DNA from: an uncultured Prevotella sp.
Lineage (GTDB): Bacteria; Bacteroidota; Bacteroidia; Bacteroidales; Bacteroidaceae
Direction of reading: 5' to 3'
Length of the DNA: 17,639 bases
Assembly (NCBI GenBank): GCA_947304695.1
Contig: CAMZBS010000042.1
Location: forward strand, 1-17,639
The notes under the pieces: model-generated
Seen by the model: the letters and a program-made list of their open reading frames with translations, nothing else
What the model was told of the DNA's origin: nothing
Database searches by the model: none
Program-made: the position numbers and the translations under genes
In this document: positions 2,736-17,364 of the stretch, piece by piece
How the letters are laid out: each line of letters begins with the position of its first letter
Numbering within the stretch: the stretch's first letter is position 1

Positions 2736-3878
2736 ATGAAGAAGATGTTGTTTACCCTGATAGCCATGCTCACGATGGCTGTGTCAGTACAAGCCATGAG
2801 CTATGAGCAGGCACGGAGAGAGGCCCTGTTCCTGACCGACAAGATGGCATACGAGCTGAATCTGACCGATGCACAGTACGAGGCTGCCTACGAAATCAAC
2901 CTCGATTATCTGATGGGTGTCACTGGTCGTCACGACGTGTTTGGCCTCTACTGGGAGCGCCGCAATACCGACTTGCAGTTCATCCTGCATACTTGGCAGT
3001 GGGAAGCCTATCTGGCCGCCTCCTATTTCTATCGTCCGCTCTTCTGGGAAGCAGGCTACTGGCATTTCGGCATCTATGCCCGCTACCCGCACCGTGACTA
3101 CTTCTACTTCGGACGTCCTCACTTCTATGTGACCTACCGTGGTGGGCACAGCTGGAGGATGAACGGCGGGCGAAGCTACTATGAGCATCATCGCGAGCAC
3201 TTCCGTCCGGCAGTTCCGCGCGACAACCACTTCGGCATGCGTGACGGATGGAACCGTGGTGATTACCGTTCGGGCGGAGGACATGGCAACAGCTCAACCC
3301 GCGTGACTGGACCTTCGAACCGTGGCAACCGTGGTACTGTAGACCGTGATGGTGGTTCGCGCAGTGGGAACTTCAGTGGAACGCGCAACAACGAGAATCG
3401 CCCGGCTGTGGGAAATGGAGCAGAACGCAGTAATAGCAGAGAGAGTCGCCCTGCCACAGTCGACCGTCAGGTAAGACCCGCAGACAATAGTAGTGTCGGT
3501 TCTTCGGGAAGTGGAAATTTCTCAGGATCGCGTAGCTCAAGCGCAAATAGCGAAACACGCACAGCCCCTGTCAGCAGGGCCCGCAGTGCAGAGTCGTCGG
3601 CACCGCGAATTGAGAACAGGTCGGCTGGATCAAGAATGAACTCAGCACCTACACGCACTGTGACACCCTCTGCTTCGAGTGCCAGTCCTTCTTCAAGTCG
3701 TGTCAGTGGCATCAGCCGCTCGGCCAGTCCTACAAGGAGTGTTTCGGCTAGTCCTTCAAGAAGCTCGTCGGCCAGTCCTACAAGAAGTGCTTCAGCCAGT
3801 TCTTCAAGAAGTGCTTCGGGCGGTCAGCGGTCTGGAGGAAATATAGGAGGCTCGCAGCGAGGCGGCGGACGGCGGTAG
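2736..3878 (+). CDS. Secreted protein with Ser/Arg-rich repetitive tail, function unknown
   Basis: I do not recognise a named family in these 380 aa. Residues 1-20 are a clear signal peptide ending VQA. Residues about 21-60 are helical and include LNLTDAQYEAAYEINLDYL, faintly like the LTxxQ motifs of Spy/CpxP-type periplasmic proteins. Residues about 65-160 are rich in Tyr, Phe, Trp and His. From about residue 165 to the end the protein is low complexity (Gly, Asn, Ser, Arg) and strongly basic, closing with four 8-residue units of the type SASPTRSx and a GGG-rich tail. The ATG at 2736 has a purine-rich but weak ribosome-binding region. It probably sits in the periplasm or at the surface, where the basic tail could contact polyanions; that is inference. 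It has its own promoter and ends 8 bp from the convergent LacI gene. Confidence 0.7.
   Translation: MKKMLFTLIAMLTMAVSVQAMSYEQARREALFLTDKMAYELNLTDAQYEAAYEINLDYLMGVTGRHDVFGLYWERRNTDLQFILHTWQWEAYLAASYFYRPLFWEAGYWHFGIYARYPHRDYFYFGRPHFYVTYRGGHSWRMNGGRSYYEHHREHFRPAVPRDNHFGMRDGWNRGDYRSGGGHGNSSTRVTGPSNRGNRGTVDRDGGSRSGNFSGTRNNENRPAVGNGAERSNSRESRPATVDRQVRPADNSSVGSSGSGNFSGSRSSSANSETRTAPVSRARSAESSAPRIENRSAGSRMNSAPTRTVTPSASSASPSSSRVSGISRSASPTRSVSASPSRSSSASPTRSASASSSRSASGGQRSGGNIGGSQRGGGRR
3720..3815 (+). repeat. Four 24-bp in-frame tandem repeats
   Basis: Units at 3720-3743, 3744-3767, 3768-3791 and 3792-3815 begin TCGGCCAGTCC or a close variant and encode SASPTRSV, SASPSRSS, SASPTRSA and SASSSRSA. A more degenerate relative precedes them around 3675-3710. 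Because the period is a multiple of three, copy-number change would keep the frame and alter the length of the basic tail. Confidence 0.85.
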
Positions 3879-9145: not shown

Positions 9146-9155
9146 ATAAATTTCA

Positions 9156-9183
9156 GTGAAGAGTGAAGAGTGAAGTGTGAAGA
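9156..9183. repeat. Heptamer array, four copies of GTGAAGA
   Basis: Exact 7-bp units lie at 9156-9162 (GTGAAGA), 9163-9169 (GTGAAGA), 9170-9176 (GTGAAGT) and 9177-9183 (GTGAAGA). The array starts 10 bp behind the -7 box of the DUF2723 promoter and covers the -33 position. The remainder of this intergenic stretch (9184-9297) is A/T-rich and I see no hairpin, promoter or gene in it. Confidence 0.85.
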
Positions 9184-12013: not shown

Positions 12014-12025
12014 GAAAATAAATAT

Positions 12026-12053
12026 GAATAATGAATTATAAATTATAAATTAT
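12026..12053. repeat. Heptamer array between divergent promoters
   Basis: The 7-bp units are GAATAAT (12026-12032), GAATTAT (12033-12039), AAATTAT (12040-12046) and AAATTAT (12047-12053). The array fills almost the whole 44-bp gap between the purD -7 box and the -7 box of the divergent gene, and takes the place of both -33 elements. Confidence 0.8.
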
Positions 12054-12103: not shown

Positions 12104-13339
12104 ATGGCACTGAATTACATTTGGATAGCACTGTTTACGATAGGCGTTCTCGTAGGTGTTGTGAAACTGGTGTTTCTGGGCGATTATGACGCTTTGCCCG
12201 AAATGATGGACTCAACCTTCAAGATGTCGAACACGGCCTTTGAGATGACACTGGGTCTGACGGGCACGCTGACACTCTGGATGGGCATATTAAAAATAGG
12301 TGAAGACAGCGGACTGGTAGACCGTCTGGCCCGTTTCCTGAGTCCTGTCCTTACCAAGCTGTTTCCTGAAATACCCAAGAACCACCCTGCGTTGGGGTCT
12401 ATCTTCATGAATATCTCGGCCAATATGCTGGGTCTTGACAATGCAGCTACGCCTGTGGGACTGAAGGCCATGCAGGAGCTGCAGAGCATCAACACCAAGA
12501 AAGACACGGCCAGCAACTCGATGATCATGTTTCTGGTGCTCAACACCTCCGGCCTGACCATCATTCCCGTGTCAATCATGGCTTACCGAGCCCGTTACGG
12601 GGCTGCCGATCCGGCCGACGTGTTCATTCCCTTGTTGCTCACCACTATGTGCTCCACGCTGGTGGGCCTGCTGACCGTCTCGATTTATCAGCGCATCAAC
12701 CTCTTCCAAAAGAACATTCTCATCATGCTGGGTGTCATCATTGGTCTGGTGGCTGCCCTGTTCACGGCCATCAGTGGCATGAACAATGAACAGATGCAGC
12801 ACTTCTGCCGCCTGCTTACGAGCTGTCTCATTCTGGGCACCATCCTGCTTTTCATCTATTCGGGTGTCTACAAGAAACTGAATGTCTACAACTCGTTCAT
12901 CGAAGGAGCCAAGGGCGGATTCCATGTGGCTGTCAGCCTGATACCTTACTGTGTAGCCATTCTGGCAGCCGTGGGCGTGTTCCGAGCCTCGGGTTCCTTG
13001 CAGATGTTGCAGGACTGGATTACGGCAGGTGTCGCAGCCTTGGGACTTGACACTGATTTCGTGGGTGCTGTGCCGGTGGCGCTGATGAAGCCGCTCAACG
13101 GTTCGGGTGCGCGTGGCATGATGCTTGAGTGCTTCGAGTCGTTCGGTCCCGATTCGTTTGTGGGCCATCTGGCCAGTGTGTTGCAGGGCAGTACCGATAC
13201 TACGTTCTACATTCTGGCCATCTACTTCGGCAGCGTGGGCATCCGGAAGTACCGCTATGCCGTCACCTGTGGTTTGCTGGCCGATGCTGCCGGCATCATG
13301 GCTGCCGTGTTGTTCAGCTATTTCTTCTTCGGCAGCTGA
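12104..13339 (+). CDS. SpmA-SpmB fusion, nucleoside-recognition (Gate) domain protein
   Basis: This 411-aa membrane protein joins two Gate domains (PF07670), which are separate SpmA and SpmB proteins in spore-forming Firmicutes. The SpmA half (about residues 1-200) carries MSNTAFEMTLGLTGTLTLWMG and the characteristic NMLGLDNAATPVGLKAM. The SpmB half (about 255-411) carries GAKGGFHVAVSLIPYCVAILA, PVALMKPLNGSGARGM and GSTDTTFYILAIYFGSVGIRKYRYA. The organism type does not sporulate, so the spore-maturation name is historical; a transporter-like or gating role in the inner membrane is the family inference, with substrate unknown. It is monocistronic and divergent from purD. Downstream come the repeats at 13344-13495 and then a convergent gene. 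Confidence 0.92.
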   Translation: MALNYIWIALFTIGVLVGVVKLVFLGDYDALPEMMDSTFKMSNTAFEMTLGLTGTLTLWMGILKIGEDSGLVDRLARFLSPVLTKLFPEIPKNHPALGSIFMNISANMLGLDNAATPVGLKAMQELQSINTKKDTASNSMIMFLVLNTSGLTIIPVSIMAYRARYGAADPADVFIPLLLTTMCSTLVGLLTVSIYQRINLFQKNILIMLGVIIGLVAALFTAISGMNNEQMQHFCRLLTSCLILGTILLFIYSGVYKKLNVYNSFIEGAKGGFHVAVSLIPYCVAILAAVGVFRASGSLQMLQDWITAGVAALGLDTDFVGAVPVALMKPLNGSGARGMMLECFESFGPDSFVGHLASVLQGSTDTTFYILAIYFGSVGIRKYRYAVTCGLLADAAGIMAAVLFSYFFFGS

Positions 13340-13343
13340 TATG

Positions 13344-13385
13344 CTTTTCTATTTGTTTCATCACCTCCTTTTCTATTTGTCTCAT
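13344..13385. repeat. Two 18-bp direct repeats
   Basis: CTTTTCTATTTGTYTCAT occurs at 13344-13361 and 13368-13385 with one difference (T or C) and a 6-bp spacer. The second copy abuts the first palindromic unit at 13386, so the two repeat types form one composite block starting 5 bp after the stop codon at 13337-13339. Confidence 0.85.
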
Positions 13386-13495
13386 AACTGAGCCTTGGTT
13401 GCGTTGTAACTGAGGCTCAGTAACGTCGTAACTAAGGCTTAGTTATTACGCAACTGAGGCTCAGTTGTGCAGTGACTGAGCCTCAGTTGTAGGGG
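13386..13495. repeat. Five palindromic repeats with exact 22-bp period
   Basis: Each unit is a 15-bp dyad of the form AACTGAGNCTCAGTT plus a 7-bp spacer. Cores lie at 13386-13400, 13408-13422, 13430-13444, 13452-13466 and 13474-13488. The third unit is AACTAAG/CTTAGTT, changed in both arms so that the dyad is kept; the first has CTTGGTT, which still pairs with AACTGAG through G-U pairs. Spacers vary (GCGTTGT, ACGTCGT, ATTACGC, GTGCAGT, GTAGGGG). The block lies between the 3' ends of two convergent genes. It has no T-tract, and its spacers are too short for CRISPR. Candidate roles are a transcript-end structure or a protein-binding array. Confidence 0.9.
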
Positions 13496-13521: not shown

Positions 13522-15687
13522 TTACTTCAGATAGTCTTCGAAGTACTGGGTGATGCGCTCGTGCAGGTGTACGCTGTTGTGGCCCATCATGTTGTGGCCT
13601 TCGCCAGGATAGGCGAAGAAGTCGGGCTGCGTGCCTGCTTCGGCACAGGCTTTCAGGAACGACAAGGCGTGCTGCGGCACCACAGTGGGATCGTTGTAGC
13701 CGATGATAATCTGCAGCTTTCCCTTCAGGTTCTTGGCCTTGGAGATGAGCGAAGTCTTTGCATAGCCCTCCGGGTTCTGTTCGGGTGTGTCCATGTAGCG
13801 TTCGCCGTACATCACCTCGTACCATTTCCAGTCGATGACGGGGCCTCCGGCCACGCCCACCTTGAACACGTCGGGATAGTTGGTCATGAGCGAAATGGTC
13901 ATGTAGCCGCCGTATGACCAGCCGTGAACACCCAGCCGTGATATGTCAACATAGGGCAGCGAACGCAGGTAGTCCACACCTTTCATCTGGTCCTGCATCT
14001 CAATCTGACCCAGCTGGCGGAAGGTGGCCTGCTCGAAGTCACGGCCACGGTTCTCCGAACCACGGTTGTCGAGAATGAAGACGATATACCCCTTCTGTGC
14101 CATGTAGGTTTCCCAGGAACGGCTCTGCCAGTGCCAGGAAGCCTCGACGTTATGGGCGTGAGGACCGCCGTAGACGTAGACCACGGTGGGATATTTCTTC
14201 GTGGGGTCGAAGTCGGCAGGCTTCACCATGCGGAAGTAAAGGTCGGTCATCCCGTCGGCAGCCTTGATGCTACCGCTTTCGTACTGAGGAACGATGAATT
14301 CATGCCACGGATTTTCTGCCGTGAGCAGGCGGCAGGACTTCCCGTTGTCAGTGCTGACAAGGTCAATGTTATTGGGCACCGTTGGTGTCGTGTATTTATC
14401 GTAGAGCAGCGTTCCGCTTGCCGACAAGTTGCCGTGGTGTACGCCTTCGCCGTTGTCGAGCAGCGTGCGCTTCAGCGTCTTCAGGTCAACGGCATAGAGA
14501 TTCTCCTGTAGGGCATGCTTCTCTTTCGAAGCAATGACAACTGACTTCTGTTTCTTGTTGAAACCCAGCAATTGGGTCACAACCCATTGACCGCTGGTCA
14601 GCTGCTTGAGCTGTTCTCCTTTTATATTATATAGATAAAGGTGGTTGTAGCCGTCTTTCTGACTCTGAAGGATGAACTTCTGACTGTCCCAGGGCAGGAA
14701 CTGGATGGGGTGCAGCGGCTCCACATATTTCGTGCTGGTCTCGCGGCAGAGTTCTGCCAGTCGCTGGCCGTTCAGGGCATCGTAGCTCACAAGGCGGCAG
14801 TCGTTCTGGTCGCGGTTCAGCTCAAACATGTAAACGGTCTGGCCGTCAGGACTCCACGCAATGTTGGTGAAGTATACTGGGACTTCAGGATTGTCAGGGT
14901 TGTCTGGTGTCTTCAGATAAATGGTCTTGCCACTCTTCAAGTCGAAGATGCCCACGGTTACCTTGTGGCTGGTCATGCCAGCCATGGGATATTTGTCGGG
15001 TTCCAACTCTGCTACGCGCGGATCGATGTTCACCTGTGGGTAGTCGGTCACCATGTTCTGATCCATGCGGTAGAAGGCCAGACGCTGTCCGTCGGGACTC
15101 CAGAAGGTGCCCTTGGTAATGCCGAACTCGTCGCGGTGTACTGACTGACCGTAGACAATTTCGCGCGAACCGTCGGTAGATAGCTGGTGCTTTTGTCCTT
15201 GTCCGTCGACCACAAAAAGCTGATAATCCTCAACAAAGGCAGTGGCTCTGGACTGGGCATTCCAGTCGTAGGCCTGCTGGCCAGAGAGACTGTCCTGCCA
15301 TACTATCTTCTTGTCCCGGAAGTCAACGAGCAGGACGGCATGTCTGTTGCCAACCTGTACAAGGGGCTGGTCGGGATAGGGGAATGTGGCGTTCATCAGG
15401 TGGCGGACCTGGCGCACGTCACCGTCGCTCTCTGCCCATTCGTTGATTTGGTCAAGCGTAAAGAGCAGTTTTTTCTTGCCAGTCTTGGCATCAATGGTGT
15501 AGCATTCCTCCACATCAGTCTGCACCAGCTGGTCGCCCCACCATGTGAGAAACATGTTCTGCGGACGCAGGTTGTGGTAGTTGGTGCCACCAAAGTTCAG
15601 GTCTTCAAGCGTGAATAGTTTCTGGGCAGACATGGTCGCTGACAGCAGCAAGGAGAAAAGAATGAAAAGGAAAGGCTTAGTCTTCAT
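13522..15687 (-). CDS. Secreted prolyl tripeptidyl peptidase-like S9 serine protease
   Basis: This 721-aa peptidase of the S9/DPP IV family closely resembles Porphyromonas gingivalis PTP-A, which releases tripeptides ending in proline from peptide N-termini. A signal peptide (residues 1-21, ending MSA) is followed by the beta-propeller with VHRDEFGITKGTFWSPDG (about 183-200; Glu187 probably binds the substrate amino terminus) and YPMAGMTSHKVTVGIFDL. The alpha/beta hydrolase domain holds VYVYGGPHAH, the nucleophile Ser591 in GWSYGG, Asp666 in GYNDP and His698 in GEGHNMMGH. The start is the ATG at 15687: the longer frame upstream only reads the methyltransferase tail out of frame. The first 11 bp overlap that gene's end, so translation is probably coupled. 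It acts in the periplasm or at the surface in peptide use. PTP-A rather than DPP IV specificity rests on remembered similarity. Confidence 0.93.
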   Translation of the reverse strand: MKTKPFLFILFSLLLSATMSAQKLFTLEDLNFGGTNYHNLRPQNMFLTWWGDQLVQTDVEECYTIDAKTGKKKLLFTLDQINEWAESDGDVRQVRHLMNATFPYPDQPLVQVGNRHAVLLVDFRDKKIVWQDSLSGQQAYDWNAQSRATAFVEDYQLFVVDGQGQKHQLSTDGSREIVYGQSVHRDEFGITKGTFWSPDGQRLAFYRMDQNMVTDYPQVNIDPRVAELEPDKYPMAGMTSHKVTVGIFDLKSGKTIYLKTPDNPDNPEVPVYFTNIAWSPDGQTVYMFELNRDQNDCRLVSYDALNGQRLAELCRETSTKYVEPLHPIQFLPWDSQKFILQSQKDGYNHLYLYNIKGEQLKQLTSGQWVVTQLLGFNKKQKSVVIASKEKHALQENLYAVDLKTLKRTLLDNGEGVHHGNLSASGTLLYDKYTTPTVPNNIDLVSTDNGKSCRLLTAENPWHEFIVPQYESGSIKAADGMTDLYFRMVKPADFDPTKKYPTVVYVYGGPHAHNVEASWHWQSRSWETYMAQKGYIVFILDNRGSENRGRDFEQATFRQLGQIEMQDQMKGVDYLRSLPYVDISRLGVHGWSYGGYMTISLMTNYPDVFKVGVAGGPVIDWKWYEVMYGERYMDTPEQNPEGYAKTSLISKAKNLKGKLQIIIGYNDPTVVPQHALSFLKACAEAGTQPDFFAYPGEGHNMMGHNSVHLHERITQYFEDYLK

Positions 15688-17287
15688 CGCTGTCGAAACG
15701 GTTTCGTCTGTTCTTGCCTCCGCTTCGGTCAAAGCGCTCATGGCCGCCACGGTTCGATGAACTCTTGTAGGCTGACTTTCCACCACGGCGTTCACCGTCG
15801 CCTCGTTTGTCGAAACGCTCTTTCTTGCGATCGAAAGAGGGTTTCTTGCGGTCAGAGAAATCTTTTTTGCGGTCAGAGAAGTCCTTCTTGCGGTCGAAAG
15901 AATCTTTCTTTCTGTCAAAGCGTTCTTTGCGTTCGCCCCTGCCTTCACTCAAGTCGTGGCGGTGGAAGGTGAAGGAACGGATGTCGGCTTCCTCGTTTTC
16001 TTCCTGTTCGTCAAGACGCTTCTTGAATTCGCGCTCTTTCTTGAAACGATGCTTCTCAGCCATCTGGCGCTTCTCCTCGTCGGTCTTCATCACACCGCCT
16101 TCGCTGCGGAAGTTCTTCAGCTTGCCGTCGAACATCTGGTATTTGCGGAACTCGCATTCCAGACTGCCGTTGAACACGGGAATCTTGATGGAAGGTTTCA
16201 GGCCGATTTGCTCGAAGCATTCCTCACGGTAGGACAGAATCCAGGCGTCGCCCCCCATGAACTGGTGCTTCAGCCGTTCGCCAATCATGCGGTAGGTGCC
16301 TAGAAGGTCGGGGGTAGAGATGCGTTCTCCGTAGGGCGGGTTGCAGACAATAATGCTCTTCTCCTTAGGCTGCGTAAAGTCCTTGAAGTCTTGCTGTTCC
16401 ACGGTGATGTCCTCGCTCAGACCGGCAGCTTTGGCGTTCAAGCGGGCTGTGTTCACGGCTTTCATGTCAATGTCGTAGCCGTAGATATGGTGTTTGAACT
16501 CGCGTTCCTGTGAATCGTCGTTATAGATGCTGTCGAACAGTTCAGCATCGAAGTCGGGCCATTTCTCGAATGCGTATTCCTTGCGGAACAGGCCAGGAGC
16601 CATGTTGTGGGCAATCAGTGCTGCCTCGACGAGCAGTGTGCCGCTGCCGCACATCGGGTCGATGAAATCGGTGTCGCCCTTCCAGCCCGTCATTAGGATC
16701 ATTCCGGCTGCCAGCACTTCGTTGAGCGGTGCTTCAACACTTTCCTGACGGTAGCCTCGGCGATGGAGTGACTCGCCCGAAGAGTCCAGGCAGAGCGTGC
16801 ATTCGCTTTCTTCAGAAGTCACGTCGGCTATGTGGATGTGCAGACGCAGGTCGGGGTTGGCTACAGAAATGTTGGGACGGGAGCCGGTACGCTCTCTGAA
16901 CTGGTCTACGATGGCATCCTTAACCTTGTAGCTTACGAACTTGGAGTGGCGGAACTCCTCTGAGAACACTACAGCATCGACCGCAAAGGTGTGGTCGTTG
17001 TCCAGATAAAGGCTCCAGTCTAATTTCTTGATTTCCTCATAGACGTCGTCGGCACTTTGTGCCTTGAAGCGGGCAATAGGCTTCAGAATTTTGATGGCCG
17101 TGTGCAAAGAGAAGTTTGCGCGGTACATCATTTCCTTGTCGCCCGTAAACGACACCATGCGTCTGCCTATTTGTACGTTGTTTGCTCCCAGTTGGGTCAG
17201 TTCTTTCGCCAGGACAGGTTCCAGTCCCATGAACGTTTTGGCGATGAGCTCAAATTGGCCTTCGCCAAATTTTGTTTCTTGTTCCAT
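15677..17287 (-). CDS. THUMP-domain class I rRNA methyltransferase with basic repeat tail
   Basis: This 536-aa protein is a SAM-dependent RNA methyltransferase related to the N-terminal (RlmL) half of E. coli RlmKL, which makes m2G in 23S rRNA. The N-terminal ferredoxin-like and THUMP region spans about residues 10-165. The Rossmann methyltransferase domain follows, with the UPF0020 segment HRRGYRQESVEAPLNEVLAA (175-194), the SAM motif DPMCGSGT (210-217) and the catalytic NPPYGER (316-322). From about residue 390 comes a 145-residue, highly charged, disordered tail not needed for the fold, with 7-residue FDRKKDS-type repeats at 457-494. Such tails resemble the RNA-binding extensions of DEAD-box helicases. 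The exact target base is inferred from homology. It is first in the operon with the peptidase and has its own promoter at 17319-17326. Confidence 0.92.
   Translation of the reverse strand: MEQETKFGEGQFELIAKTFMGLEPVLAKELTQLGANNVQIGRRMVSFTGDKEMMYRANFSLHTAIKILKPIARFKAQSADDVYEEIKKLDWSLYLDNDHTFAVDAVVFSEEFRHSKFVSYKVKDAIVDQFRERTGSRPNISVANPDLRLHIHIADVTSEESECTLCLDSSGESLHRRGYRQESVEAPLNEVLAAGMILMTGWKGDTDFIDPMCGSGTLLVEAALIAHNMAPGLFRKEYAFEKWPDFDAELFDSIYNDDSQEREFKHHIYGYDIDMKAVNTARLNAKAAGLSEDITVEQQDFKDFTQPKEKSIIVCNPPYGERISTPDLLGTYRMIGERLKHQFMGGDAWILSYREECFEQIGLKPSIKIPVFNGSLECEFRKYQMFDGKLKNFRSEGGVMKTDEEKRQMAEKHRFKKEREFKKRLDEQEENEEADIRSFTFHRHDLSEGRGERKERFDRKKDSFDRKKDFSDRKKDFSDRKKPSFDRKKERFDKRGDGERRGGKSAYKSSSNRGGHERFDRSGGKNRRNRFDSDED
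15806..15919 (-). repeat. 21-bp in-frame tandem repeats in methyltransferase tail
   Basis: About five copies of a 21-bp unit encode seven-residue repeats of the form FDRKKDS or SDRKKDF, ending in a degenerate FDKRG. The two central copies are nearly identical. The period is a multiple of three, so gain or loss of copies keeps the frame. Confidence 0.85.
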
Positions 17288-17315: not shown

Positions 17316-17364
17316 GTGCAAAGGTACTGAAAAGTTGGGAGTTAGGAGTTAGGAGTTAGGAGTT
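17316..17364 (-). promoter_or_regulatory. Methyltransferase promoter with GTTAGGA heptamers (left arm of inverted repeat)
   Basis: Minus-strand -7 box TACCTTTG lies at 17326-17319, followed by GCACC, giving a start near 17313 and a leader of about 26 nt. Behind it lie heptamers GTTGGGA (17334-17340) and GTTAGGA at 17341-17347, 17348-17354 and 17355-17361, in place of a -33 box. The whole 49-bp block is mirrored at 17409-17457. Confidence 0.7.

Follow-up and report, generated by a model that had tools for sequence, protein, structure and literature searches.

What is the five-fold palindromic repeat that lies between two convergent genes of an uncultured Prevotella sp., and which of its properties is under selection? 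The window, by which is meant the whole stretch of 17,639 nucleotides that was analysed, was described in an initial annotation as carrying a run of five 15-bp dyads spaced exactly 22 bp apart, at positions 13386-13495, with compensatory changes in the arms. The start at 13386 was correct, but the last dyad ends at 13488, and the annotated range takes in the 7 bases after it.

The array in the window

The array, 103 bp long, consists of dyads starting at 13386, 13408, 13430, 13452 and 13474, of which only unit 4 matches AACTGAGNCTCAGTT exactly. It lies between a gene with a Gate domain and a gene for an S9/DPPIV peptidase:

12104..13339, + strand: left neighbour gene, Gate domain (nucleoside recognition), outside the array
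13345..13385, + strand: two 17-bp direct repeats, TTTTCTATTTGTTTCAT and TTTTCTATTTGTCTCAT, 24 bp apart, abutting the left end of the array, read in the sequence
13386..13488, symmetric, no strand: whole array, five 15-bp dyads at a 22-bp period
13386..13400, no strand: dyad 1, AACTGAGCCTTGGTT, two mismatches to the consensus
13408..13422, no strand: dyad 2, AACTGAGGCTCAGTA, one mismatch, outer pair broken
13430..13444, no strand: dyad 3, AACTAAGGCTTAGTT, two mismatches, both arms altered
13452..13466, no strand: dyad 4, AACTGAGGCTCAGTT, no mismatches, exact
13474..13488, no strand: dyad 5, GACTGAGCCTCAGTT, one mismatch
13522..15948, - strand: right neighbour gene, S9/DPPIV peptidase, convergent, stop at 13522, outside the array

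The 15-mer was found six times in the whole window at up to 3 mismatches, five of these inside the array, and the mean count in 200 shuffled sequences was 0.95, with none reaching six. The half-site score of the array, a core-independent mean pairwise identity of its ten half-sites, was 0.763, and 300 window-length sequences from a first-order Markov model reached at most 0.417. These controls confirmed that the five-fold 22-bp array is real and far beyond chance.

Both changes in unit 1 are compatible with G-U pairing, as had been annotated, and unit 3 carries a paired change in both arms. The final base of unit 2 is A, which breaks its outer pair (A-A), and the first base of unit 5 is G, which gives an outer G-T pair. 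Thus, not all arm changes are compensated, even within the window array.

At gathering scores Rfam gave no matches in the window. A palindrome test found no array in up to 350 bp downstream of any of 12 orthologs of the S9 peptidase gene (72-81 % identity), one of which lies on a contig (L092) that ends 28 bp past the gene; ACATTGA-type repeats are found behind this ortholog. The window also contains heptanucleotide tandem repeats of about 4-5 copies each (AGTGAAG, AGTTAGG and ATAAATT, at 9155-9183, 17333-17364 and 12018-12053). A 24-bp tandem repeat at 3720-3819, in the 3' end of an ORF (2736-3878) coding for a protein without a Pfam match, probably explains the single match of the window at period 24 in the core-independent scan described below.

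Number, placement and spacing of arrays in a related genome

A strict pattern of two dyads with a gap of 4-30 bp matched three stretches in genome_contigs. It had no matches in viral_contigs, and a phage origin was rejected on this count. One of the three stretches (L002), from Prevotella sp. SUG981, has dyads exactly 22 bp apart and aligned with the window array over 39 bp at 89.7 % and over 40 bp at 87.5 % identity. The others, from Desulfocapsa (L001) and Akkermansia (L003), were set aside for their dyad spacings of 39 and 30 bp. The Prevotella MAG genome containing L002, hereafter called G001, contained 251 dyads at up to 2 mismatches (reversed control, 0). In 856,858 bases of G001 (about 2.2 Mb) there were 65 arrays of at least two units, 46 with three, 15 with four and 4 with two units, as well as 16 single matches; the reversed sequence gave 7 singles and no arrays. 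The search for the dyad in related genomes, which the initial annotation had proposed, thus revealed many further arrays. The core-independent scan retrieved 63 of the 65.

With genes called by a simple purpose-made caller, 61 of the 65 arrays were clear of called genes and 4 overlapped a gene edge by 2 to 20 bp. Both neighbours were called for 61 arrays, 35 of which lie in co-directional, 14 in divergent and 12 in convergent gaps. The corresponding numbers for the background of 331 gaps of at least 80 bp were 191, 76 and 64 (P = 0.997). The arrays of G001 have no gene-orientation preference and are divided among the three gap types much as intergenic gaps in general are. An intrinsic terminator or promoter was rejected on this neutrality, and the earlier proposal of a switchable structure at convergent 3' ends was not borne out, since arrays are found in all gap types.

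Array-to-array gaps in G001 (n = 46) had a median of 11.5 kb and a mean of 12.7 kb. Only one gap was shorter than 5.5 kb, compared with 15.6 (equal weights) or 15.1 (length weights) expected from random intergenic placement, and none of 10,000 random draws was as low. The coefficient of variation was 0.578, compared with 0.86 (P 0.0002) or 0.85 (P 0.001) in random placement. The result was robust to minimum gap lengths of 150, 200 and 300, one contig being dropped at 300. Two long gaps, of 32 and 47 kb, are contrary to strict regularity. Mobile DNA was rejected as the cause of the 47-kb gap: 10 of its 32 called genes were scanned and matched SecA, NAD-dependent DNA ligase, phosphofructokinase and TonB receptors, among other families, and no mobile-element family.

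Placement and spacing both bear on the possibility that the arrays are operators of a global transcription regulator. Palindromic sites of a protein-binding type in intergenic DNA agree with it, but divergent or upstream gaps were not preferred, close neighbours were depleted, and arrays also occur between convergent genes, as in the window. This explanation is unlikely.

A second short inverted repeat, GGTCATTAGA / TCTAATGACC (e.g. in L017, L022 and L010), was present at 95 sites in the 857 kb of G001. Of these, 25 were no more than 300 bp from an array, and 20 of the 65 arrays had such a neighbour. It may be a terminator.

Half-sites, not pairing, are conserved

Arm covariation was assessed in 168 units of G001, from the arrays known at that stage, with independent (shuffled) arms as the expectation. 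Watson-Crick pairs were found at positions 3/13 in 60 units (64.1 expected), at 5/11 in 98 (105.0 expected) and at 7/9 in 145 (142.9 expected), and 26 dyads were perfect compared with 27.9 expected. Pairs across the linker were at or under expectation (e.g. 34 vs 46.1). Similarly, among 52 distinct units of a different core in another genome, G264, pairs 3/13 (29 vs 32.3) and 4/12 (21 vs 21.9) gave no pairing excess. The arms of the G001 units thus vary independently, and pairing is not the selected property. The covariation analysis that the initial annotation had called for therefore went against compensatory change: the paired change of unit 3 stands as an observation, but the outer pairs of units 2 and 5 and the independent arms in both genomes do not fit it.

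The base at the dyad centre was G or C in 205 of 206 G001 units, which suits a base pair read in the duplex rather than a loop. The conserved element is a half-site of approximately 10 bp, GYAAVTRAGS, whose orientation alternates every 11 bp. Ranked against the half-sites of G001, the ten of the window array all lie within the distribution, between its 10th and 88th percentiles. At the half-site position changed in unit 3, A is the second commonest base in G001 (24 %), and the simplest account of the paired change in this unit is that A was chosen twice, independently. Half-sites alternating every 11 bp suggest that protein dimers stack along a single face of the DNA; the exact period and the half-sites make this arrangement, raised already in the initial annotation, the best-supported reading. 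Of the earlier view that the dyad is selected as RNA or DNA, the DNA part appears to hold, and an RNA hairpin is disfavoured by the independent arms.

Hairpins in RNA or DNA, acting as a terminator, a 3'-end stabiliser or a switch, are accordingly very unlikely. Each unit could form a short stem and the window site lies between convergent genes, but the independent arms in G001 and G264, the fixed G/C centre, the absent orientation preference and the lack of an Rfam match in the window argue against them, as do the counts of outward T6 and outward A6 within 60 bp, at 17 and 15 of the 65 G001 arrays respectively.

Borders and outer units of the arrays

The edges of the G001 arrays (101 flanks) consist of an A-rich outer linker plus a half-site AAGTRTA. 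The borders are symmetric, and flank columns past about 50 bp carry little information. An in-register palindrome, ATTGAWWATCAAT, is centred 44 bp out on some flanks: 16 of 129 reached 9 of 11 positions, compared with 0-4 flanks at 24 other offsets tested.

For G264 and another genome, G004, arrays were sampled from the listed matches to their own cores. All 13 sampled G264 arrays had four inner units, and at their outer edge C replaced A on the left in 9 of 13 and G replaced T on the right in 8 of 13. Identity at a lag of 22 was raised for approximately three units outward in G264 (0.48, 0.51, 0.40, then 0.33-0.25), and other lags tested, except 44, were near 0.25. In G004 (9 elements) lag-22 identity was raised for about five bins, and in G001 there was a slight rise only (0.32 in the first bin). 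The 17-bp direct repeats to the left of the window array may correspond to the phased outer units of G264 and G004.

Unit number does not drift freely, being 3 or 4 in 61 of 65 G001 arrays. An ordinary drifting minisatellite would likewise consist of tandem units with point changes, but the narrow unit number, the kept period, the conserved half-site positions and the symmetric borders make it the least probable of the explanations considered.

The exact period, independent arms, G/C centre, symmetric borders and phased outer units favour protein sites. A sequence-specific scaffold on duplex DNA, formed by a putative protein, is well supported by the anatomy of the arrays.

Array dialects across the genus

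All compared genomes were drawn from the genus of G001. G277 and most of the G204 stretches were selected where patterns matched, and G085 and G018 were picked as likely P. intermedia kin. Nine genomes (G346, G426, G118, G046, G418, G349, G056, G331 and G093) were picked by stretch size or nearness to the window, and arrays were found in two of them.

The core-independent scan, with six half-sites (three units) and a threshold of 0.62, gave at period 22 62 matches in G001, 12 in G204, 5 in G118, 4 in G056, 1 in the window and none in the others. At eight other periods (18 to 26) there were no matches in G001 and 0-2 each in the others. At a threshold of 0.54, G277 had 6 matches at period 22 and at most 1 at other periods; a threshold of 0.50 was not used for this genome, as period 21 equalled period 22 (8 matches each). 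In 540 kb of G204, 31 matches at period 22 compared with 0-4 at each of 15 other periods (threshold 0.56). The sampled stretches of G346, G426, G046, G418, G349 and G331 (77-100 kb each) and of G093 (16 kb) had no 22-bp excess, and the array system is therefore not universal in the genus.

The sequence of the core differs between genomes. An exact match to a relaxed dyad of the window/G001 type occurred in 14 of 299 genomes of the genus, with 154 in G001, 19 in G277, 4 in G204 and one in each of eleven others. G093 is the genome whose S9 peptidase is closest, and among 199 of its relatives no genome had more than 2. Among 12 genomes, the core AATTTCASTGAAATT was found 82 times in G264 and 3-12 times in the 11 others, GTTTCATCATGATGAAAC 37 times in G004 and 0-7 times in the 11 others, and AAAAGCGGCTGTTTTGC 450 times in G085 and 208 times in G018 (strands summed) and at most twice in the 10 others. 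A strand pattern of AAAAGCGGCTGTTTTGC in G085 was considered and dropped, the totals being balanced (218 vs 232). Downstream of the orthologs of one G001 gene, phased arrays with other cores were found in 5 of 16 other genomes, with scores of 0.59-0.73 (other periods, at most 0.50); positional conservation is not claimed from this, as arrays are common between genes (65 arrays and 331 gaps of at least 80 bp in G001). The Prevotella intergenic arrays are a large class with a fixed geometry and genome-specific cores.

Gaps under 5.5 kb were also depleted in G204 with its families pooled, 2 being observed compared with 8.6 expected at a score of 0.55 (P 0.001), 1 compared with 5.0 at 0.58 (P 0.016) and 1 compared with 3.0 at 0.62 (P 0.15). 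Overall spacing regularity in G204 was not significant. DNA-uptake sequences have dialects between species, and an uptake or recombination signal would agree with species-specific, dispersed sites depleted in short gaps, but the phased architecture of several units argues against such a signal, which is highly improbable here.

A second array family of G204, GGGAAYCCTGTTCCC at 22 bp (C2, e.g. at 405300, 421168, 437230, 496195 and 525470), was seen beside the AAnYRAGGC family. In G277, a dispersed repeated element with an internal phased array was seen at L058, L060, L062, L063, L065 and L069-L075, and nine copies of it were aligned.

The main rival explanation is a selfish dispersed repeat, REP- or MITE-like, that would be copied in trans by a putative enzyme with the phased dyads as its binding sites, short spacings being deleted or avoided by insertion preference. 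It is a real possibility, though not the preferred one. In its favour are the patchy distribution, the genome-specific families, several of them in each of G204 and G118, and the near-identical array copies in G277, G204 and G018: repeated alignable elements surround the arrays of G277 (9 copies) and G204 (7 places), and in G018 one 17-mer recurred without change at least 92 times among the matches listed. Against it, the G001 copies are diverged and have yet kept period and unit number, their flank columns past about 50 bp are nearly uninformative, short spacings are depleted in G001, and Y1_Tnp (PF01797), the RAYT-type transposase, is absent from G001, G204 and G277. PF01797 was present in 6 of 12 genomes, and these include genomes both with and without arrays seen. 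Selfish spread could also have come first and chromosomal use later, in which case both explanations would be true in sequence.

A proposed role in chromosome organisation

The preferred reading, to which a probability of about 0.5 is given, is that the window array is one of many putative nucleoprotein assembly sites that are spread over the genome and have a chromosomal role. A putative dimeric DNA-binding protein would recognise the half-site of about 10 bp, GYAAVTRAGS in the window/G001 dialect. With half-sites alternating every 11 bp, dimers could occupy the dyad core and also span the linker, all on one helix face, and would assemble into a short stack whose size is fixed and whose ends are marked. 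Such sites would lie between genes, in G001 approximately every 12-13 kb and seldom close to the next one, and their likeliest job would be that of an anchor or boundary setting loop or supercoil domains. Each genome would use its own half-site sequence in a constant geometry. Protein binding, the dimeric state and the chromosomal role are what we infer from the arrays. Chromosome organisation is preferred since it best fits the orientation neutrality and the short-gap depletion. It is weakened by the 32- and 47-kb gaps of G001 and by the fading of the G204 depletion at stricter thresholds, and also by the several families and near-identical copies, which fit spreading elements.

More tentatively, and with some doubt, the arrays may be a fast-evolving chromosome-architecture system in Prevotella, in which a site of fixed geometry about every 12 kb has its recognition sequence rewritten in each lineage, the published repeat PINSR being one dialect. 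The site would have approximately 3-5 inner dyads at 22 bp, flanked in some lineages by phased half-units on the outside, and would be rewritten in step with a rapidly changing putative DNA-binding protein, as in centromeres or PRDM9 hotspots. If the spacing does reflect chromosome organisation, the sequence of the site changes between species while its geometry and placement rule stay, and co-evolution of site and protein would become directly testable. The array DNA could serve as bait, giving a direct handle on the putative protein in a major genus of the human and animal microbiota.

Relation to known repeats

REP/BIME elements with their RAYT transposases are dispersed extragenic palindromes in species-specific families, several per genome. 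The arrays are likewise dispersed and species-specific with several families per genome, but they are phased tandem dyads with uncompensated arms. A REP/RAYT system was rejected on the missing Y1_Tnp (G001, G204 and G277) and on the lack of arm covariation (G001 and G264). The matS sites of MatP and the Noc-binding sites are dispersed single short palindromes that are bound by protein and serve the chromosome and not single genes. They resemble the arrays as many dispersed palindromic sites, protein binding at the arrays being presumed, but the arrays are composed of several phased dyads with genome-specific cores.

No description of a 22-bp phased architecture was found in the open-licence papers searched, including the available parts of PMC5771137 and PMC4596501. 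The BrickBuilt MITE of Porphyromonas gingivalis, with 19 copies in one strain, is also an intergenic Bacteroidales element with an internal short tandem repeat, but the published consensus of its 23-nt direct repeat is non-palindromic and it has IS-like terminal inverted repeats (available parts of PMC4596501). Regarding such MITE-type ends, the G001 flanks are symmetric with little signal past about 50 bp, and the copies in G277 and G204 lie inside longer repeated elements.

PINSR is a 188-bp incomplete intergenic repeat of P. intermedia, with 177 and 184 copies in two strains, located downstream of tnaA and reported to be of unknown function (Naito et al. 2015, PMC4755523, available parts). 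Like the arrays of G001 (65 in 857 kb, 61 of 65 clear of genes) it is dispersed and intergenic, at approximately 180 copies per genome, but the parts available of that paper describe a repeat of 188 bp, and mention neither phased 22-bp dyads nor dialects of other species. The core of the window array is a different one. Section 3.4 reports no terminal inverted repeats for PINSR (PMC4755523), which argues against a selfish repeat.

In G085, which has replicons of 1.97 Mb and at least 0.67 Mb, a 22-bp-phased array adjoins the end of a tnaA-like gene. A 192-bp part of this array is 79 % identical to an array of G018, which lies about 7.2 kb from the tnaA-like gene of G018. Both genomes appear to belong to the P. 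intermedia group. PINSR is probably one dialect of the array class, having been set beside the G085 element by location and description and not by letters. The class is little known, and PINSR is the published repeat that probably belongs to it, contrary to the earlier statement that no named element has this form. If so, an isolated and unexplained repeat would find its place in a general class that obeys a clear geometric rule. At a distance of about 7.8 kb from its tnaA-side array, G085 also has three phased copies of AAATATGACGTCATA, a different core, at positions 2655-2720 of L242.
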